This document shows, one piece after another, positions 488 to 8,226 of a stretch of 40,114 bases of DNA. The stretch covers positions 1 through 40,114 of the forward strand of contig JAOZPG010000021.1 in assembly GCA_029932855.1 (NCBI GenBank). The letters are read 5' to 3'. Positions within the stretch are counted from its first letter, which is position 1. Every line of letters begins with the position of its first letter. The position numbers were made by a program, and so were the translations under genes. Source of the stretch: Bacteroidales bacterium (lineage in GTDB: Bacteria > Bacteroidota > Bacteroidia > Bacteroidales > VadinHA17). Under the pieces are notes generated by a model. It saw only the letters and a list, made by a program, of their open reading frames with translations. It was not told the origin of the DNA and did not search any database.

Positions 488-520
488 TATTGATACATGA
501 GCATATGTGCATTATTTTTG
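488..520 (+). promoter_or_regulatory. Bacteroidota-type promoter of the octaheme cytochrome operon
   Basis: A -7 box TATTTTTG (513-520) matches the Bacteroidota consensus TAnnTTTG. A -33-like TATTG ends at 492, leaving a 20-nt spacer. Transcription would begin near 525-528. That excludes the ATG at 507 as the start of the downstream gene and favours the one at 543. The element is nearly identical to the promoter at 4338-4369. Confidence 0.65.
497..512. promoter_or_regulatory. Near-palindromic operator in the promoter spacer (copy 1)
   Basis: ATGAGCATATGTGCAT is a 16-bp imperfect inverted repeat centred on CATATG with ATG/CAT ends. It abuts the -7 box, so a bound protein would overlap the sigma/RNA polymerase site. 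The same element, differing at one base, lies at 4346-4361 in the same position relative to the promoter boxes. Its function as an operator is inferred from symmetry, position and recurrence. Confidence 0.6.
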
Positions 521-542
521 TTACCTGATCACCAAAGAAATT

Positions 543-1265
543 ATGGAAAAGAATAATATTAGTATGGAAGGGATGACCACCATCAGTGTTGAGACTTTAC
601 TGGCAAGGTCACCGATGTGTGAAAAAATGGGTTATTTTATTTTGGAATCGGATCCTAATCCCGATTATTATGCCAAGGCGAATTTCCCTCCTAATAAGCA
701 TAATAGTATATGGTATTTATTCTTTATTATCGAGTGTCCTACAAGGAATCAGCAGGAATCAGTCTTAAGAAACATATCTGCTAAGAAGTCAGATGAGGGA
801 ATACTATGTAACATAGCTTTTGGTGAGCTGGATTTTCATGCAAAGAACTATTCTTTTCTGAGGATGAACATAGAAACAGAAGACAGTCAGGAATTATCTT
901 TACTATGTAAAGAACTGCAGGGCCTTGGTATTAAGTTTAAGAAAGACAGGAAGGCTGCACCCTGGGTGTCAAAACGAACATTCGTAAAATATACCGAATT
1001 TGTTGAGATTGGAGATGGCATTTATAAAGAAGCTTCTAATGACTCGCGATATTTCTTTTCTATACCCGGACTTGTCTCATTGGATGAATTGTATAGTAGA
1101 ATGAATAAGATAAAGAACAATTGTAATTTTCATCATTTCGACTCTTTTCTGGCAAGCCTTCCGAGTAAAAACAAATTTCTGGATTTCGTAGGTATATATT
1201 CAGATCATTGTAAAATTGAAAGGCTTCCTGAATTAAATAAAGAGATTAAAAAGCTCTTTGCCTGA
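543..1265 (+). CDS. Hypothetical protein, first gene of the octaheme cytochrome operon
   Basis: I do not recognise this protein. From ATG 543 it is 240 aa (MEKNNISMEGMTTISVETLL...). An upstream in-frame ATG at 507 lies inside the promoter/operator and is probably not used. There is no signal peptide, membrane helix, Cys cluster or heme motif, so it looks cytoplasmic and soluble. It is rich in aromatic residues and Lys, with segments such as NSIWYLFFIIECPT and FLRMNIETEDSQELSLLCKEL that suggest an alpha/beta fold. It ends 61 bp before the octaheme cytochrome gene and has no terminator after it, so co-transcription is likely. A regulatory or maturation role for the redox module is possible but unsupported by any motif. 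Confidence 0.75.
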   Translation: MEKNNISMEGMTTISVETLLARSPMCEKMGYFILESDPNPDYYAKANFPPNKHNSIWYLFFIIECPTRNQQESVLRNISAKKSDEGILCNIAFGELDFHAKNYSFLRMNIETEDSQELSLLCKELQGLGIKFKKDRKAAPWVSKRTFVKYTEFVEIGDGIYKEASNDSRYFFSIPGLVSLDELYSRMNKIKNNCNFHHFDSFLASLPSKNKFLDFVGIYSDHCKIERLPELNKEIKKLFA

Positions 1266-1326
1266 AACTTTAAACAGATTTTTTTTTACCGGGCTTGTTG
1301 TTATATAATTTTAGATATTAATTATC

Positions 1327-2931
1327 ATGTTGCTTATTAAGAAATCCAGGGAGAGATTCTTCAGACTACTGTCATTGTTTATTGCAATTTTGCTTCCATG
1401 GGTACTTGGCATACTGTACCTGAGTAAAGACAAGATAAGTGAGGGAGATGTACTTACTGAAGTGAATTTCAAGTACGACACCATGCCCAGGGTGGATCAC
1501 TCAAAATTCGGAATATTGAACAGAGACTTTAAAAGTCCACAGGAACTCACCCAGGCATGCCTGGCCTGTCATAACATGACAGCACATGATGTAATGCAAA
1601 CTTCCCACTGGAAATGGACCAGGGATTATGTTACAGACGAGGGCGATACTATGCAACTTGGGAAAAAGAATATAATAAATAATTTCTGTATAGGCATAGG
1701 ATCAAACGAGGCCCGTTGTACAAGCTGTCATATAGGATATGGCTGGAAAGATGATAATTTTGATTTTGATGACCCTTTGAATATCGACTGTATTGTATGT
1801 CATGACCGGTCGGGATCATATAAGAAATTTCCTACTATGGCAGGCTATCCGGCAGATACAGAGATGGTTTTTGGTGGTGTGAAATATTCTCCTCCTGATT
1901 ATCAGAATATAGTTAAGAACATTGGATCTCCGACTAATCAGAACTGCGGATCCTGTCACTTTGTTGGAGGAGGAGGTAATAATGTTAAGCATGGGGATAT
2001 AGCCAATGAACTGAAAGATATAAGCCGGGAGGTAGATGTACATATGGCCAGGGATGGCGGTAATATGAGCTGTGTTGACTGTCATAAAACCGACAGGCAT
2101 CAGATTAGCGGGAAGCTCTATTCCATAGCTTCAACCGACACAAACAGGGTTAGCTGCGCTCAGTGTCATTCCGGTTCACCGCATAAGGATAAGATTCTAA
2201 ACCAGCATACGGCAAAAATTGCCTGTCAGACCTGTCATATTCCCACATTTGCTAAAGTAAGTGCAACAAAAACTCATTGGGACTGGTCGACAGCAGGACA
2301 GTTTAATGATGATGGCAGCCTGAAGATTGAGAAAGACAGCATGGGAAATCTCAGTTACCACAGTATGAAGGGTTCTTTTGTCTGGGAAAAGAATGTTATA
2401 CCTGAATACCAGTGGTTTAATGGTAAAGCCAGGCATTATGTGCTTGGACAGAAAATTGATACTTCTGCTGTAGTCAGGCTGAATGAACTTGAAGGTGGAT
2501 ATGAAGATCCCAATTCCAAAATAATACCCATGAAGGTGCACAGGGCTAAACAGATATATGATAATGTGAATAATACAATGATACTGCCCCATCTTTTTGG
2601 CAAAGATACAAGCTCGTACTGGAAGAATTTCGATTGGCAGAAGGCAGCTACTGCAGGCATGGAAGCAGCCGGTCTTGAATACAGCGGGTCGTATGGTTTT
2701 GTAGAAACTGTAATGTACTGGCCGATTAATCATATGGTGGCTCCCAAGGAAGAATCATTACAGTGTGCAGACTGCCATTCAGAAAACAGCAGGCTTGCGG
2801 GACTGGATGGCTTTTACCTTAGCAGGAGGGACCGTAACTCTACCCTTGATCTTATGGGCTTTATTATGATAGTCCTGGCAGGCCTTGGAGTGGCGATACA
2901 TGGATTTTTAAGAATTAGCGGGAAGAAATAA
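1327..2931 (+). CDS. Octaheme c-type cytochrome, tetrathionate-reductase (OTR)-like family
   Basis: The 534-aa protein has exactly eight CxxCH heme c motifs, starting at residues 78, 131, 155, 207, 249, 277, 300 and 480. The 180-residue gap before the last heme and the KHGDIANEL segment near residue 221 fit the octaheme tetrathionate reductase family known from Shewanella OTR, whose members reduce small N or S oxyanions in vitro. An N-terminal hydrophobic helix (about 12-32) and a C-terminal one (about 508-528) suggest an extracytoplasmic domain held in the cytoplasmic membrane at both ends. The next gene, 15 bp downstream, encodes a b-type cytochrome that could supply quinol electrons. The physiological substrate cannot be read from sequence. 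Family assignment is strong; nitrite, hydroxylamine or tetrathionate reduction is inference. Confidence 0.9.
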   Translation: MLLIKKSRERFFRLLSLFIAILLPWVLGILYLSKDKISEGDVLTEVNFKYDTMPRVDHSKFGILNRDFKSPQELTQACLACHNMTAHDVMQTSHWKWTRDYVTDEGDTMQLGKKNIINNFCIGIGSNEARCTSCHIGYGWKDDNFDFDDPLNIDCIVCHDRSGSYKKFPTMAGYPADTEMVFGGVKYSPPDYQNIVKNIGSPTNQNCGSCHFVGGGGNNVKHGDIANELKDISREVDVHMARDGGNMSCVDCHKTDRHQISGKLYSIASTDTNRVSCAQCHSGSPHKDKILNQHTAKIACQTCHIPTFAKVSATKTHWDWSTAGQFNDDGSLKIEKDSMGNLSYHSMKGSFVWEKNVIPEYQWFNGKARHYVLGQKIDTSAVVRLNELEGGYEDPNSKIIPMKVHRAKQIYDNVNNTMILPHLFGKDTSSYWKNFDWQKAATAGMEAAGLEYSGSYGFVETVMYWPINHMVAPKEESLQCADCHSENSRLAGLDGFYLSRRDRNSTLDLMGFIMIVLAGLGVAIHGFLRISGKK

Positions 2932-2946
2932 GATAAATACAAAAAC

Positions 2947-4287
2947 ATGAAAAAGAGCACATATATATACAGAGGGTTTGAACGTTTCTGGCACTGGAGC
3001 CAGGCACTTCTAATTTTATTCCTTGCTTTTACAGGTTTTGAGATCCATGGGACTTATTCTCTAATGGGTTTTGAAAATGTGGTAAGATGGCACAATATTG
3101 CAGCATGGGCATTTATTATACTTATTATTTTCGCCATCTTCTGGCATTTTGTTACAGGCGAGTGGAAACAATATATTCCCACCACACATTATATTAAGGC
3201 CCAGTTTGAATATTATATAAGCGGGATATTTAGGGGAGCTCCTCACCCTACGCACAAGACTGTATATAATAAGTTCAATCCCATCCAGAGATTAATTTAT
3301 CTTGGTCTTAAGATGGTAATACTTCCGCTACAGGTGATTACGGGTTTTATATACATGTTTTATGTTTATCCTGACAATCCTATACAGGTAGGAGGTCTTG
3401 GTATTACAGCTCTCGTACATACAGCAATGGCTTTTGTACTTATTGCCTTTGTTATTGCCCATGTTTACCTTACAACAACAGGAGATACTCCTCTTTCGAG
3501 TATAAGAGCCATGATAACAGGCTGGGAAGTAATAGACATGGATGAAAAAGAAGAGAGAGAGAAGCACCTGCAACAGGCTGTGGATGATAGTGTGGCAGGA
3601 TATTACAGGATAGATTCAGAAGGTATACTCAGGGATGTAAATGAAGCCTGGCTGCGCATGTATAATTGCAAGGATAGGAATAAGGTAATAGGTAAACATT
3701 TTTCCATAACCAGAAATGAAAAGAATCTGGCTGAAATGGAAGAACTTGTAAATAAAGTATTGCAAAAGGGAGAAATGATAACCGGATACCCTGTAATGCG
3801 TAAGACCTTTGATGGAAAAGCAGGGAAACATCTCCTGTCTGCAAATCCTGTTCTTGAAGATGGTAAAATAACAGGTATGGAAGGTTTTATTCTTGATATC
3901 CATGACAGGGATGAACTCATGGAACATATGTACTATGCTGTAAGGAATAGTGGAGCCGGTTATTATCGTTTAGACAGTGATGGTAAAATAATGGATGTGA
4001 ACGAAGCCTGGTTGAAGCTTTATAAATATGATCATAAAGATGAAGTAGTTGGAAGGCATTTCTCAATTACCCGTAAATCCAAAGATCTTAATGATTTAAA
4101 GGGTATTTTCGATAGTGTTATGAACGGAGAATCTGTTTCAGGTAAACTTATTACCAGAAGATGTAAAGATAATTCAAAGGGAAAGCATATTCTCTCTGCC
4201 AGTCCTTTCTATATTGGTCATAAAGTAATGGGTATGGAAGGATTTATTCTAGACGTATCACAACTTTATGAAAAAATAAAATCCTAA
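2947..4287 (+). CDS. Cytochrome b561-type membrane subunit fused to two tandem PAS domains
   Basis: Residues 1-195 form a di-heme cytochrome b domain like those of formate dehydrogenase gamma or thiosulfate reductase PhsC, with membrane helices and candidate heme ligands His16, His49, His67, His158 and His172. A charged linker (about 198-210) leads to two PAS-like repeats at about 212-320 and 332-440, offset by roughly 120 residues and sharing GYYR-DS-G, DVNEAWL and GMEGFILD segments. The protein ends right after the second PAS, with no kinase, cyclase or HTH output domain. It lies 15 bp after the octaheme cytochrome gene and probably passes quinol electrons to it. The PAS pair may sense redox state or a ligand, or gate electron flow. 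The cytochrome and PAS assignments are solid; the signalling role is inferred. Confidence 0.88.
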   Translation: MKKSTYIYRGFERFWHWSQALLILFLAFTGFEIHGTYSLMGFENVVRWHNIAAWAFIILIIFAIFWHFVTGEWKQYIPTTHYIKAQFEYYISGIFRGAPHPTHKTVYNKFNPIQRLIYLGLKMVILPLQVITGFIYMFYVYPDNPIQVGGLGITALVHTAMAFVLIAFVIAHVYLTTTGDTPLSSIRAMITGWEVIDMDEKEEREKHLQQAVDDSVAGYYRIDSEGILRDVNEAWLRMYNCKDRNKVIGKHFSITRNEKNLAEMEELVNKVLQKGEMITGYPVMRKTFDGKAGKHLLSANPVLEDGKITGMEGFILDIHDRDELMEHMYYAVRNSGAGYYRLDSDGKIMDVNEAWLKLYKYDHKDEVVGRHFSITRKSKDLNDLKGIFDSVMNGESVSGKLITRRCKDNSKGKHILSASPFYIGHKVMGMEGFILDVSQLYEKIKS

Positions 4288-4337
4288 AGGACTGTTTTCA
4301 TATTTCTTTAAAATCAGTAAAAAAAATACTGAAATAA

Positions 4338-4369
4338 TTTGCATTATGAACATATGTGCATTATCTTTG
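4338..4369 (+). promoter_or_regulatory. Bacteroidota-type promoter of the DUF134/MinD cluster
   Basis: A TTTG -33 box (4338-4341), a 20-nt spacer and a TATCTTTG -7 box (4362-4369) match the Bacteroidota housekeeping promoter consensus. The predicted start of transcription near 4375 leaves a leader of about 20 nt before the ATG at 4394. Spacing and spacer sequence are almost the same as in the promoter at 488-520. Confidence 0.75.
4346..4361. promoter_or_regulatory. Near-palindromic operator in the promoter spacer (copy 2)
   Basis: ATGAACATATGTGCAT is an imperfect palindrome with perfect inner arms ACATATGT and outer ATG/CAT. It fills the spacer up to the -7 box. It differs from copy 1 (497-512) at one base. 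Its position just ahead of a gene for a DNA-binding DUF134 protein suggests autoregulation, which is inference. Confidence 0.65.
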
Positions 4370-4393: not shown

Positions 4394-4885
4394 ATGCCAC
4401 GTCCACAAAATAACAGGATAGTTCATGAACCGCCACTTTTTAGCGAGTTTAAGCCATTAGGTGTGCCAAGTAAAAATCTTGAACATATTTCACTGAGTCT
4501 TGATGAATTTGAATCTTTAAGATTAGCTGATCATGTGGGACTTTCCCATGAAGAAGCATCTGAAGAAATGGGGATATCAAGATCAACTTTCAGTCGCCTG
4601 GTGGAAAGGGCAAGAAAGACAATTTCTGTATTCCTGATAGAGGGCAGGGCCCTTACAGTTGAAGGGGGGAATATCCATTTCAGGAACAATCTTATTAAAT
4701 GTAATAATTGTGGGCATATGTTTAAAACTCATATTGAAGATCAGTTTAACAATTGTCCAAATTGTGGTTCCGATAATCTTGTAAATCTAGCAGGAGGATT
4801 TGGCCACGGAATTTGTTGTACTAATAATAACTTAAAAAAAGGAGGTTATCATGCCAGGAGGAGACAAAACAGGACCTCATGGTGA
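4394..4885 (+). CDS. DUF134 (UPF0251) DNA-binding regulator with C-terminal zinc ribbon
   Basis: The start MPRPQNNRIVHEPPLFSEFKP is the typical DUF134 opening. Residues 34-78 (LSLDEFESLRLADHVGLSHE... then SRSTFSRLVERARKTI) form a sigma-70 region-4-like helix-turn-helix. A zinc ribbon follows with Cys103/106 and Cys121/124, plus a CC pair at 141-142. At 163 aa the protein is longer than the minimal family. DUF134 genes commonly head clusters of NifX-like and Fe-S MinD ATPases in anaerobes, as here. The last 35 bp overlap the next gene, so translation is coupled. It is the likely regulator of its own operon and perhaps of the octaheme operon through the shared palindrome. Family confidence is high; target sites are inferred. 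Confidence 0.88.
   Translation: MPRPQNNRIVHEPPLFSEFKPLGVPSKNLEHISLSLDEFESLRLADHVGLSHEEASEEMGISRSTFSRLVERARKTISVFLIEGRALTVEGGNIHFRNNLIKCNNCGHMFKTHIEDQFNNCPNCGSDNLVNLAGGFGHGICCTNNNLKKGGYHARRRQNRTSW
4838..4845 (+). promoter_or_regulatory. Strong Shine-Dalgarno sequence inside the DUF134 reading frame
   Basis: AAAGGAGG ends 5 nt before the ATG at 4851. Strong SD sites are uncommon in Bacteroidota. This one fixes the start of the DUF5320 gene inside the 3' end of the DUF134 gene. Confidence 0.7.
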
Positions 4886-5156
4886 GGGTCCGATGACAGG
4901 GCGCAGAATGGGAACTTGCGCTGGAAATGATTATTATGGACGCGGTGGCGGGCCGGGGTTTTATGGCTGGGGCCGGGGCTTTGGCTTTAGACATGGAGCA
5001 GGACGCGGCGCCGGATATGGCTATGGGTTTGGTGCCCGCTATGCGAACATTGATCCACAGGTTTCAAGCAAAACACTTATAGAGAATGAAATTCGCGTTC
5101 TTAAAGACAGGTTATCATCTCTGGAGGATGAACAGTCTAAATTGAATGAGGATTAA
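4851..5156 (+). CDS. DUF5320 Gly/Arg-rich small protein
   Basis: The N-terminus MPGGDKTGPHGEGPMTGRRM is the hallmark of DUF5320 proteins. The middle is very rich in Gly, Tyr, Phe and Arg (about residues 30-65), and the last 30 residues (LIENEIRVLKDRLSSLEDEQ) form a short coiled coil. The 101-aa protein has no catalytic motif, and its function is unknown. Members usually sit beside NifX-like and MinD/Mrp ATPase genes, matching this context, so a scaffold role for the Fe-S or cofactor proteins is conceivable. Translation probably starts from an internal SD within the overlapping upstream gene. Confidence 0.85.
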   Translation: MPGGDKTGPHGEGPMTGRRMGTCAGNDYYGRGGGPGFYGWGRGFGFRHGAGRGAGYGYGFGARYANIDPQVSSKTLIENEIRVLKDRLSSLEDEQSKLNED

Positions 5157-5163
5157 CTTAAAG

Positions 5164-5190
5164 GCCGGGTACGGCAATGTCCGTACCGGC
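5164..5190 (+). terminator. Intra-operon stem-loop, possible attenuator or weak terminator
   Basis: The arms GCCGGGTACGG and CCGTACCGGC pair over 10 bp with one bulged G and a 6-nt loop. They are followed by tattttatta, which is not a pure U tract. It lies 8 bp after the DUF5320 stop and ahead of the zinc ribbon gene. It may partly terminate transcription or stabilise the upstream mRNA. Confidence 0.55.
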
Positions 5191-5234: not shown

Positions 5235-5450
5235 ATGAACGGAAAAGGAATAAATATGGGCCAGGGAAGAGGCATGGGACGTGGAGGAGGAAGAGGCAGG
5301 AACCAGGGTGGAGCCATGGGCACAGGAGGTTACTGTGTATGTGCCAAATGTGGTGAGAAAGTGCCTCATCAGCAGGGTGTTAAATGTACTACATTAAAAT
5401 GCCCCAAATGCGGTAAGACAATGATAAGAGAAGAACTGTTAAAGAAATAA
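5235..5450 (+). CDS. Gly-rich zinc ribbon small protein
   Basis: This 71-aa protein has a Gly/Arg-rich N-terminus (residues 8-32, repeated GRG/GRGG) and a Cys-rich C-terminus with C34, C36, C39, C51, C56 and C59 (YCVCAKCG ... LKCPKCG), which suggests a zinc or Fe-S binding ribbon. An alternative start at Met8 (5256) is possible. Proteins of this style accompany NifX-like genes in anaerobic bacteria and archaea, but I know of no assigned function. It is followed 2 bp later by the first NifX-like gene. The Gly/Arg-rich tails on two adjacent small proteins suggest a shared partner or nucleic acid contact, which is speculative. Confidence 0.8.
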   Translation: MNGKGINMGQGRGMGRGGGRGRNQGGAMGTGGYCVCAKCGEKVPHQQGVKCTTLKCPKCGKTMIREELLKK

Positions 5451-5452
5451 GA

Positions 5453-5791
5453 ATGAAAAAAGTATTTGCTATACCAACTATAAATAAGAAGCTTAGTGCA
5501 CATTTTGGTCACTGTCAGGAGTTTGCTGTTATAAGTACTGATGATAACAAGATAACAGATATTAAATACCTGGAGCCTCCTGAACATATGCCGGGTACCT
5601 ATCCTAATTTCCTGGCACGTAACGGGGTTAACATTATTATTGCTGGAGGATTAGGTGTAAAAGCACAGGACGTATTTGTTGCCAATAATATTGAAGTGTT
5701 TATGGGGGTAAACAGTGATCAGCCGGAAGAGCTGGTAGAGCAGTATTTAAAAGATCAGCTGGAAAGCGGGCAAAATCTTTGTGACCATTAG
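5453..5791 (+). CDS. NifX/NifB-like dinitrogenase iron-molybdenum cofactor domain protein (1)
   Basis: The 112-aa protein is a single cofactor-binding domain of the NifX/NafY/NifB C-terminal family (PF02579). It has the early SAHFGHCQEFAV motif, the central GVNIIIAGGLGVKAQDVF glycine-rich loop, and the family's late LVEQYLKDQL helix. A C-terminal CDH adds a potential metal ligand. No nif structural genes are present, so it probably works as in the ORP (orange protein) group, small proteins that hold a Mo-Cu-S or other metal cluster. It sits directly ahead of two Fe-S MinD ATPase genes with a 6-bp gap. Family is certain; bound metal is unknown. Confidence 0.88.
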   Translation: MKKVFAIPTINKKLSAHFGHCQEFAVISTDDNKITDIKYLEPPEHMPGTYPNFLARNGVNIIIAGGLGVKAQDVFVANNIEVFMGVNSDQPEELVEQYLKDQLESGQNLCDH

Positions 5792-5797
5792 TAAAAG

Positions 5798-6658
5798 ATG
5801 AAGATTGCAATAGCCAGCGGAAAGGGAGGGACGGGAAAAACCACTTTATCTACAAACCTTTCGGTATTCCTTTCGGAAACTGAAAAAGTTGTATTGGTGG
5901 ACCTGGATGTTGAAGAACCTAATTCAGGTTTATTTATTCAGGGTAAACTCTTATCCGAACATATACAATATAAGGAGATACCTGAGTGGGTACAGGAAGC
6001 CTGTACCTTGTGCGGGGAATGCCAGGATGTTTGTAATTTTAATGCTGTGATACAGCTTGGAGATTCCATAATGGTTTTTCCTGAGTTATGCCATAGTTGC
6101 CATGCATGTTCAGGACTGTGTCCGGTAGGAGCGCTTCCTATGAAGCCGAAGGAGATAGGCCTTATAAGAAAATATAAATATAATAATCTGGATTTTGTTG
6201 AAAGCAGGCTGAATATCGGTGAGGAGCAAAGTACCCAGCTTATAGCCAATACAAACCATTTTACAGACGAGAATTACAATAATGATTATATAAAACTTTT
6301 TGATTCTCCCCCGGGTACTTCCTGTCCCGTTATTGAAGCAACAAAAGGAGTGGATTATGTTGTGCTCATAACCGAACCCACACCTTTTGGCCTGCATGAC
6401 CTGAAACTGGCAGTGGATACTATGAGAGATCTGAATAAGAAATTCGGTGTTGTGATAAACCGTTACGGCATAGGTAATGACGATGTAATTGGATATTGTG
6501 AGGAAGAGAATATAAGCATACTTGCCAGGATCCCTAACAGAAGGGATATTGCCGAATTATACAGCAGAGGAGAGTTATTGTATGATAAGGTGCCGGAATT
6601 CGGATCAGAGATTATTAGTTTGTGGAATAACATAAGGAAGGAGGTGGAGGCAGAATGA
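5798..6658 (+). CDS. MinD-type P-loop ATPase with inserted 2x[4Fe-4S] ferredoxin domain (1)
   Basis: The deviant Walker A motif SGKGGTGKTT (residues 7-16) is that of MinD/Mrp/NifH-type ATPases. A ferredoxin-like insert carries C69/C72/C75/C79 and C98/C101/C104/C108, each CxxCxxCxxxC, consistent with two [4Fe-4S] clusters. The later DSPPGTSCP motif is the switch region. The 286-aa protein is cytoplasmic. It overlaps the next gene by 4 bp (ATGA), and that gene encodes a paralogue with cysteines at the same residue numbers, which points to a heterodimer. Related ATPases occur with ORP in Desulfovibrio. A role in loading or moving metal clusters with the NifX-like proteins is inferred. Confidence 0.92.
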   Translation: MKIAIASGKGGTGKTTLSTNLSVFLSETEKVVLVDLDVEEPNSGLFIQGKLLSEHIQYKEIPEWVQEACTLCGECQDVCNFNAVIQLGDSIMVFPELCHSCHACSGLCPVGALPMKPKEIGLIRKYKYNNLDFVESRLNIGEEQSTQLIANTNHFTDENYNNDYIKLFDSPPGTSCPVIEATKGVDYVVLITEPTPFGLHDLKLAVDTMRDLNKKFGVVINRYGIGNDDVIGYCEEENISILARIPNRRDIAELYSRGELLYDKVPEFGSEIISLWNNIRKEVEAE

Positions 6659-7533
6659 AAGAGATCGTTGTTATTTCAGGGAAAGGTGGTACAGGTAAAA
6701 CATCAATAACTGCTTCATTCTCAGTTCTTGCAGGCAGAGATGCCATATTAGCTGATTGTGATGTTGATGCTGCTGATATGCACTTGTTGCTGGAGCCGGA
6801 TTTTGCAAATCCCGGGGATTTTTACAGCGGTGAAGTATCGGAAATAATTGAGGATAAATGCACCCAGTGTGGAGAGTGCATGAAAGTATGTCATTTTGAT
6901 GCCATCTCGCTGATAGATGCTAAGCACAGGATAGATCCTGTTTCCTGTGAGGGATGTGGCTACTGTACACATGTTTGTCCCGAGAATGCTATAATAAGCA
7001 GGGAGCTTAATGTTGGTAAATGCTTTGTGTCATCGGTAAAGACCGGTACAAAAATGGTTCATGCCCGCCTGGGCGTAGCTGCCGATAATTCTGGTAAACT
7101 GGTAGCCAAAGTGAAGAATGAAGCAAAAGAGCTGGCAGTGAAGCTGGGTAAGAAATATGTACTTGTTGACGGGTCACCCGGAATTGGTTGTCCTGTAACT
7201 TCTTCACTAACAGGAGCAGATTTTGTTGTTCTGGTTACAGAACCATCAGTCTCAGGGGTTCATGATCTTAAAAGGTTGTATGAACTTGTTAAAAAATTCA
7301 GGATACCAGCAGGTTGTATTATAAACAAAGCAGATTTGAACAGCAAAACAAGTCAATCCATTATTGATTACCTGAAAGAAGAGAATATACTGTATCTTGG
7401 AAGCTATAAATATGATCTTGCTTTTACAAGGGCTATGACAGAAGGCAAGACCATTGTGGAATGGGATGGAGCAAACAGTATATCGTTATCAATAAAGGAA
7501 AGCTGGGAGAAGATAAAGGAAAGCCTGTTGTAA
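6655..7533 (+). CDS. MinD-type P-loop ATPase with inserted 2x[4Fe-4S] ferredoxin domain (2)
   Basis: This 292-aa paralogue of the preceding gene has Walker A SGKGGTGKTS (8-17), ferredoxin cysteines at 69/72/75/79 and 98/101/104/108, and the DGSPGIGCPV switch motif. The start ATG overlaps the stop of the upstream gene (ATGA), so both are translated together. The two ATPases are of near-equal length and probably pair. A 60-bp gap follows before the second NifX-like gene, with no clear promoter or terminator. Its role is inferred to be nucleotide-driven handling of Fe-S or metal clusters, not cell-division site selection, because MinC and MinE are absent. Confidence 0.92.
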   Translation: MKEIVVISGKGGTGKTSITASFSVLAGRDAILADCDVDAADMHLLLEPDFANPGDFYSGEVSEIIEDKCTQCGECMKVCHFDAISLIDAKHRIDPVSCEGCGYCTHVCPENAIISRELNVGKCFVSSVKTGTKMVHARLGVAADNSGKLVAKVKNEAKELAVKLGKKYVLVDGSPGIGCPVTSSLTGADFVVLVTEPSVSGVHDLKRLYELVKKFRIPAGCIINKADLNSKTSQSIIDYLKEENILYLGSYKYDLAFTRAMTEGKTIVEWDGANSISLSIKESWEKIKESLL

Positions 7534-7593: not shown

Positions 7594-7932
7594 ATGAGAA
7601 TAGCATTTACGACAAAAGGAGATAAATGGGAATCAATGATGGATCCCCGTTTTGGAAGGACAGAATATTTTTTGGTATATGACGATAAAAGCAAAGAAGT
7701 AACTGTATATGATAATACAGATGTACAGGGAGAGGCACATGGGGCGGGACCCAGGACGGCCACGGAATTGTTTAAGCTTAATCCTGATATACTTATTACC
7801 GGGAACGGGCCAGGTGGTAATGCCGGCACAGTCCTTGAAAAGGCTGGTATTGAAGTGTATATAGGAGCTGGCCAGATGACGGTTAAAGAAGCACTTGAAG
7901 CATTTTTGAATAACAAACTTGAAAAAATTTAA
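7594..7932 (+). CDS. NifX/NifB-like dinitrogenase iron-molybdenum cofactor domain protein (2)
   Basis: The 112-aa single-domain protein opens MRIAFTTKGDKWESMMDPRF, with DPRFGRTEYFLVYD as the characteristic early motif, and shows TATELFKLNPDILITGNGPG and the EKAGIEVYIGAGQMTVKEAL end typical of the family and closest to ORP-type proteins. It differs clearly from the first copy, so this is not a recent duplication. It is 3 bp from the MIP18-like gene, so the two are surely co-translated. It probably binds a small metal-sulfur cofactor; which one is unknown. Confidence 0.9.
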   Translation: MRIAFTTKGDKWESMMDPRFGRTEYFLVYDDKSKEVTVYDNTDVQGEAHGAGPRTATELFKLNPDILITGNGPGGNAGTVLEKAGIEVYIGAGQMTVKEALEAFLNNKLEKI

Positions 7933-7935
7933 ATT

Positions 7936-8226
7936 ATGACTGAAAAAGAAGTAATGGAAAAATTATCGGAGGTAATGCATCCTGCAATAAATCACTCCTT
8001 AATTGATCTTGGAATAGTTAAGGACGTAAAGCTGATGGATAAGACGGTGGGGCTGGAGTTCTGTTTTCCCTTCCCTAATATTCCAATTGCCGGACAACTG
8101 ATCAGCTCTGTTGAAAATATAATTCAGGAGCTTGGACTGCTATGTGTTTATAAAGAGACTCTTATGAACGAAGAAGAAAAGGCAAATTTTATGCAAATGG
8201 AGGCAGCCGCCTGGAAAGGGATGTAA
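7936..8226 (+). CDS. MIP18/DUF59 Fe-S assembly-type small protein
   Basis: The 96-aa protein matches the MIP18 (DUF59, SufT/PaaD-like) fold: an N-terminal helix ending in MHPAINHSLIDLGIVKDVKL, a strand pair DKTVGLEFCFPFPNIPIAGQ, and a helix LISSVENIIQEL. Members assist Fe-S cluster insertion or maturation. Cys residues occur in EFCFPF and LLCVYK. Its position between the NifX-like/MinD genes and an Fe-S flavoenzyme supports a cluster delivery role. Family assignment is good; the client protein is unknown. Confidence 0.82.
   Translation: MTEKEVMEKLSEVMHPAINHSLIDLGIVKDVKLMDKTVGLEFCFPFPNIPIAGQLISSVENIIQELGLLCVYKETLMNEEEKANFMQMEAAAWKGM

Follow-up and report, generated by a model that had tools for sequence, protein, structure and literature searches.

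A stretch of 40,114 nucleotides from a Bacteroidales bacterium of the lineage VadinHA17 (assembly GCA_029932855.1, contig JAOZPG010000021.1; here termed the window) contains two operons preceded by near-identical palindromes, and we consider it probable (at roughly 0.86) that both palindromes serve as operators for the product of the DUF134 gene at 4394-4885, which would act as a dimeric autoregulator, most likely a repressor, of its own operon and of an adjacent operon encoding an octaheme cytochrome. The comparative genomics behind this reading points to the site itself, its conservation at DUF134 genes, the agreement of recognition-helix class with each operator class and a shared set of putative target genes. 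Throughout, G numbers designate genomes, G000 being that of the window, and L numbers designate loci. The elements directly concerned are the following:

490..492, + strand: -33-type TTG of promoter 1
497..512, + strand: operator 1, ATGAGCATATGTGCAT, the 3' half of which has the C seen in S-type DUF134 operators
513..520, + strand: -7 box TATTTTTG of promoter 1
4338..4341, + strand: -33-type TTTG of promoter 2
4346..4361, + strand: operator 2, ATGAACATATGTGCAT
4362..4369, + strand: -7 box TATCTTTG of promoter 2
4394..4885, + strand: DUF134 protein, proposed autoregulator, with a sigma-region-4-like helix-turn-helix and a C-terminal four-cysteine zinc-ribbon-like part
4577..4597, + strand: codons for the start of the recognition helix, SRSTFSR (residues 62-68), which hold the variable specificity positions

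The original prediction held that the two operons share an almost identical promoter with the same palindromic operator, and both this and the promoter layout that it described were borne out. Each operator is a 16-bp near-palindrome that directly abuts its -7 box, the two agreeing in 15 of 16 bases and, together with the -7 boxes, in 22 of 24, and the spacer measures 20 nt in both promoters; promoters that combine a -33 TTG or TTTG with TAnnTTTG are of the Bacteroidota type. A search of the window with the 16-mer at up to three mismatches returned four matches against 1.5 expected, two of the four being the same palindromes read backwards, and this count is by itself weak evidence of an excess over chance. 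Counting both strands, the window has 28 TAnnTTTG boxes. Over the 16 bases that precede the box, the operator pair agrees at 15, and no pair that includes neither operator does better than 9. The motif is not frequent genome-wide either: in 2,618,192 bases, only the two window sites lie within one mismatch of ATGNACATATGTNCAT. Two mismatches away there are 17 further places (nine for a control pattern), and a TAnnTTTG box stands directly behind none of the 13 of these that were examined on both strands; at one two-mismatch place, L010, such a box lies one base out of register and the palindrome is poor. When the -7 box is included in the pattern, the two window sites are the sole exact matches in the genome, with eight others at two mismatches and none for the control.

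Conservation of the motif before DUF134 genes of relatives, which had been proposed as a check, was found on two scales. The 117 genomes of the organism's family, scanned with the 24-mer at up to three mismatches, yielded 110 places in 65 genomes (seven places for a reversed control pattern), the commonest operator form being ATGAACATATGTTCAT followed by TATATTTG. DUF134 is the commonest gene immediately after the site; at 46 of the 110 places, a DUF134 match follows on the same strand at a distance of 19-38 bp. DUF134 was located in the same genomes through 109 matches over the cut-off used, seven below it being excluded. At up to two mismatches, 43 genomes have both motif and DUF134, two the motif only, 32 DUF134 only and 40 neither (Fisher p = 2.6e-9); at up to three, the corresponding figures are 55, 10, 20 and 32 (p = 2.2e-7), both p values referring to genomes that are related. 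Many DUF134 genes lacking a strict match carry a degenerate TGAAC-N4-GTTCA at the same position. In a separate scan of 80 named loci, some of which overlap the family genomes and hence do not form a separate sample (60 of the 80 are left as separate rows once identical DUF134 sequences are merged), the upstream sequence reached 60 bp or more in 79, and a perfect TGAAC-N4-GTTCA was present in 36 of these and a 9-of-10 match in 15. Within 150 bp, the perfect motif precedes 69 of 162 DUF134 genes and 35 of 870 other open reading frames (ORFs) of the same loci, many of the 35 being, on reading, sister operators or divergent neighbours.

On the wider scale, a site rule was applied that leaves the bases at half-site positions 3-5 unscored and counts only the symmetry of those positions, identical DUF134 sequences being merged and upstream regions shorter than 60 bp dropped. 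The rule is passed by 141 of 210 DUF134 genes and by 5 of 210 shuffled upstream regions; among the remaining ORFs of these loci, 71 of 902 pass, many of them showing operator-like letters. At L019, in the G002 draft, a good site is followed by just a short DUF134-like piece; family searches found no DUF134 in G002.

Operator bases appear to follow the recognition-helix class of the DUF134 protein, the classes being clade-wide and separated by few evolutionary changes. Half-site base 3 is G in 254 of 262 half-sites of SRxTxxR helices and T in all 20 half-sites of helices ending in Asn or Lys. For SRxTxTR helices in which the first x is not S, base 5 is A in 173 of 200 half-sites and G in 10, and it is G in 45 of 46 half-sites of SRxTxGR/GN helices. 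In the window's class (first x S, third x T or S), of which L318 is a member from another class of the phylum, base 4 is C in 11 of 22 half-sites, as against 1 of the 200 half-sites of the SRxTxTR helices just mentioned; that one, at L119, resembles a chance site. In terms of whole half-sites, SRxTxTR helices pair with TGAAC, SRSTF[TS]R helices (the window's class) with TGAAC/TGCAC mixtures, SRATFGR with TGAGC, SRGT[IY]QR with TGTGC and SRQTF[GS]N with TTAGC or TTGGC. Since whole clades share one class, these tables overstate independence. G001 and G018 each encode two DUF134 paralogues, one per class and each behind an operator of its own class, and the octaheme sites of the window's genus (G000, G026 and G027) bear the C of the sole DUF134 class found there. 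Taken with the conservation of the site, the agreement between helix class and operator supports the earlier proposal that one DNA-binding protein controls both window promoters and that DUF134 is the best candidate.

The genes behind the sites suggest what such a protein may control. The palindrome rule is passed by 95 of the 110 family places, 44 of them before DUF134 and 51 elsewhere, and 48 of these 51 were read, the window's own site and two at contig ends being left out. Judged by the first four ORFs, 44 of the 48 head operons with a shared gene set that comprises NifX, MinD, DUF5320, glycine-rich zinc ribbon, DUF89, CGGC, radical SAM, HdrB/HdrC, old-yellow-enzyme type, octaheme, DUF4405 and methyltransferase genes and, once, DUF134 as third gene; the matches themselves served to define several of these families, and glycine-rich matches may be false, the low-complexity filter having been off. 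The shared set occurs behind none of 13 non-palindromic places, and 35 of the 48 palindromic sites are still positive when only the families of the window's cluster are counted. The redox regulon that had been anticipated is mostly a NifX/MinD iron-sulfur set, and the octaheme operon has the site in the window's genus only. At L169, on the minus strand near 5486, a perfect TGAACATAAGTTCA stands 61 bp before a gene that, from its N-terminus, we take to encode a cytochrome bd oxidase subunit.

DUF134 genes outside the Bacteroidia were obtained by profile search, and the half-sites and spacing of the other classes were recognised only by reading upstream regions. The site rule is passed by 32 of 40 DUF134 loci from other classes or orders of the phylum, one of which, L303, belongs to a different family within the window's order; L295-L298, L306, L313, L320 and L321 fail it, L313 and L321 holding near relatives of the palindrome. 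In the other classes, operator centres mostly lie 14-64 bp, and often 15-29 bp, before the start codon. Beyond the phylum, DUF134 is the first gene of an operon that continues with NifX-MinD-MinD-MrpORP in Peptoclostridium, and on each of the four enterobacterial plasmids examined (one from E. coli, one from Citrobacter and two from Klebsiella) it stands before NifX. The rule accepts the sites of Acetoanaerobium (L335), Peptoclostridium (L336) and the E. coli plasmid (L337). A DUF134 relative occurs in 177 plasmid records, of which six were read. The DUF134-NifX pairs of L337-L340 reside on conjugative or mobilizable plasmids, and a thioesterase gene and a Dps-family gene lie downstream on both Klebsiella plasmids.

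The window protein is a clear member of PF02001 (77.7 bits, cut-off 27), which we take to be the same family as UPF0251 and COG1342, and no function is assigned to PF02001 in the Pfam and NCBIfam copies used; a literature search, with subscription literature mostly outside its reach, found no description of DUF134 as a regulator. Residues S62, R63, T65 and R68 of the SRxTxxR-type helix are invariant in both alignments, and the window protein conforms. The four cysteines of the C-terminal CxxC...CxxC are invariant in 13 of 13 selected rows, including the window's, and this part is not family-wide, being absent, on reading, from members of 104-106 amino acids (aa) on enterobacterial plasmids. 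The predicted structure places a helix-turn-helix at 36-83, in a block with a predicted local distance difference test score of 88-97, and a recognition helix at 63-83 that starts at the variable residues. Pfam gives a sigma region 4 match (Sigma70_r4_2, E 2.3e-6) and, among the window protein's matches, no sigma region 2, so that the protein does not qualify as an extracytoplasmic function (ECF) sigma factor. In a fold search, the matches to ECF sigma region 4 and a DeoR DNA-binding domain reach, in their best rows, a probability of 1.00 and a root-mean-square deviation (rmsd) of 0.5-1.0 over 38-50 columns, and the single match in a sequence search of solved structures is the DeoR domain 7bhy (E 0.00086). 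DUF134 shares the helix-turn-helix fold with ECF sigma region 4 and DeoR DNA-binding domains but, unlike them, its Pfam matches come without sigma region 2 or a DeoR effector domain, and its putative target is a symmetric operator rather than a -35 element.

Direct binding, dimerisation, repression and the signal we infer from these comparisons. A DUF134 dimer would occupy the DNA between the -33 and -7 elements, each half-site contacted by one recognition helix, and would control the operon that encodes it (DUF5320, zinc ribbon, NifX, two MinD-type ATPases and iron-sulfur assembly protein) and, in the window's genus, the octaheme/cytochrome b-PAS operon as well. In simple one-component autorepressors, of TetR/LexA-like logic, the regulator gene is first in the operon and the operator lies on its own promoter; DUF134 shares this layout in a protein family unrelated to TetR or LexA. 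It would repress until released by a metal or redox signal, in the manner of simple one-component autoregulators, and the C-terminal cysteines, absent from short members, may sense that signal. Repression appears the most likely mode because the operator lies on the core promoter here and near the start codon in other lineages.

Activation by a bound DUF134 protein, for instance in the manner of MerR from within the spacer, seems unlikely but deserves consideration, given that the operator lies within the 20-nt interval between the -33 and -7 elements and that MerR-type sites lie between promoter boxes. Against it, the loose placement of operator centres before the start codon elsewhere in the phylum suits blocking, and Bacteroidota promoters ordinarily have spacers of some 19-20 nt, so that remodelling is not needed.

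A further doubtful alternative is that one promoter was copied locally from the other, the octaheme operon not being functionally co-regulated. The site occurs before the octaheme operon in all three genomes of the window's genus, in which that operon directly precedes the DUF134 operon, and at none of 10 octaheme loci elsewhere, a distribution that favours copying and also tells against the octaheme operon as part of the regulon. As a general target, the octaheme operon is unsupported outside the genus, the nearest case being a 9-of-10 match lacking a -7 box in G009 (L283). Local copying is harder to reconcile with the retention of the operator in all three genus genomes while the flanks differ, and with G027, in which the operator directly precedes the octaheme gene.

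The possibility that a CRP/FNR-family regulator binds the palindrome, DUF134 being merely one of its targets, we regard as quite improbable. The 5-4-5 layout of the site resembles that of FNR-type sites, a CRP/FNR-like gene is divergent from a ATGAACCAATGTTCAT site in G034 and G044, and this CRP/FNR-like protein, at an identity of at least 66%, shares a contig with DUF134 in 13 of 24 cases among the matches listed; in G097, which has a site and no DUF134 found, a CRP/FNR-like gene is on the same contig as the site. At L079 and L082, the ATGAACCAATGTTCAT site lies between a CRP/FNR-like gene and a divergent methyltransferase operon. CRP/FNR-like genes are present in 113 of 117 genomes, so that their presence does not track the site and is uninformative as a discriminator, and G020 (64% complete) has site and DUF134, no CRP/FNR-like gene being found there at E 1e-20. 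Moreover, DUF134 is the gene most often directly behind the site, and the operator varies with DUF134 helix class even between the paralogues of G001 and G018, which one shared CRP/FNR protein would not explain. A LexA-type SOS box can be dismissed almost entirely: the core GAACATATGTTC, which we take to equal the Gram-positive LexA box, offers sequence likeness only, the target genes found are not repair genes, and a lexA search of 20 genomes (positive in 9 of 14 control genomes) found none in G000 or the 11 family relatives searched, matches appearing in three genomes, all of other families and none over cut-off.

Several further observations weigh against DUF134 as the binder, or against its generality. 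By the rule, 69 of 210 DUF134 genes have no site; those of the MARPHKSRK group appear, on reading, to stand inside operons, an excuse not available to many MPNRRR-type and some Chlorobia-like copies. Conversely, G003 and G097 have good sites with no DUF134 found (drafts, in a search without positive control), and G044 and G054, also drafts, carry ATGAACCAATGTTCAT-variant sites with no DUF134 found, G054 being scored 100% complete. No target gene follows four of the 48 palindromic sites, and at least one of the 44 positives (L097) depends on glycine-rich sequence matched without low-complexity filtering. Only a few helix changes on the tree (3, 1 and 2) underlie the helix-operator classes, too few for independent-pairs tests to reach significance, and G019 has one C-type site though only a P-type DUF134 was found. 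The fold-search E-values are weak, at 0.03-0.1 for sigma and DeoR, and the top matches by E-value are HypA and MCM, with an rmsd of about 10-14. When palindromes were scored by symmetry alone and compared with shuffles, several loci that the rule accepts (e.g. L300, L301, L336 and L337) fell short of significance. In a 395-genome phylum sample, the Bacteroidia-type combination of half-site and -7 box occurred at 20 places, spread over 18 genomes, against eight places for the control, and none of the 20 is near a DUF134 match; the other classes use other half-sites and spacing. Finally, L338-L340 fail the rule, CATATG-centred TTGGC/GCCAA pieces being visible by eye only, and because these three plasmid sites fail it our confidence both in DUF134 as the operator-binding autoregulator and in the broader proposal given below is slightly lowered.

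The remaining features of the two operons are these:

543..1265, + strand: first gene of operon 1, matching no Pfam or NCBIfam family
1327..2931, + strand: octaheme c-type cytochrome, tetrathionate reductase family (TIGR04315; 625.6 bits, cut-off 375)
2947..4287, + strand: cytochrome b561-type protein with two PAS domains
4851..5156, + strand: DUF5320 protein
5168..5187, + strand: terminator-like hairpin, one of seven such hairpins in the region, a number not above shuffles (7.8)
5235..5450, + strand: 71-aa glycine-rich zinc-ribbon protein
5453..5791, + strand: NifX-type protein (PF02579) that resembles the C-terminal domain of MrpORP
5798..6658, + strand: MinD-type ATPase with 4Fe-4S ferredoxin motifs
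6655..7533, + strand: second MinD-type ATPase with 4Fe-4S ferredoxin motifs
7594..7932, + strand: second NifX-type protein
7936..8226, + strand: iron-sulfur assembly protein (PF01883)

The octaheme gene attributed to operon 1 is present, but it is the ORF at 543-1265 that comes first. The listed GTG start of this ORF, at 507, falls in the operator, and the ATG at 543 is the first in-frame ATG past the -7 box. Homologues of this gene immediately precede the octaheme gene in G004-G007 and a 51-aa match remains in G026, no homologue being found in G027. The zinc-ribbon gene at 5235-5450 is below the 80-aa ORF cut-off; similar proteins are encoded directly behind operators in several other genomes.

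With MinD-type ATPases and NifX-type proteins in one cluster, the window resembles the orange protein (ORP) operons of Desulfovibrio vulgaris, which likewise encode proteins with 4Fe-4S ferredoxin motifs, NifX/orange-protein types and an MrpORP-like domain (PMC6345978). Control of the Desulfovibrio operons involves sigma-54, the enhancer-binding protein DVU2106 and IHF (PMC3897727, PMC6345978), whereas in the window it would fall to DUF134 at a TAnnTTTG promoter. No two-domain MrpORP exceeded the NCBIfam cut-off among ten window proteins, the best match being the first NifX-type protein, over the C-terminal domain only (112.3 bits against 450).

For PF02001, the operator, the regulon and the specificity positions are newly proposed here. 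On balance, we lean towards the broader proposal that DUF134 proteins form a widespread family of bacterial transcription factors with a readable helix-to-operator code, in which three residues of SRxTxxR would set three bases of a CATATG-centred palindrome. Members of the family would autoregulate and control NifX/MinD metal-cluster (orange-protein-like) systems from the Bacteroidota to the Clostridia and enterobacterial plasmids, and would recruit local electron-transfer operons, here that of the octaheme cytochrome. If this is true, a domain without known function would become a regulator family with stated operator, targets and specificity residues, and orange-protein-like operons beyond Desulfovibrio would gain a regulator. 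The list of targets (NifX, MinD, DUF5320, DUF89, HdrBC and zinc ribbons) suggests, in turn, a common function for these poorly understood genes.

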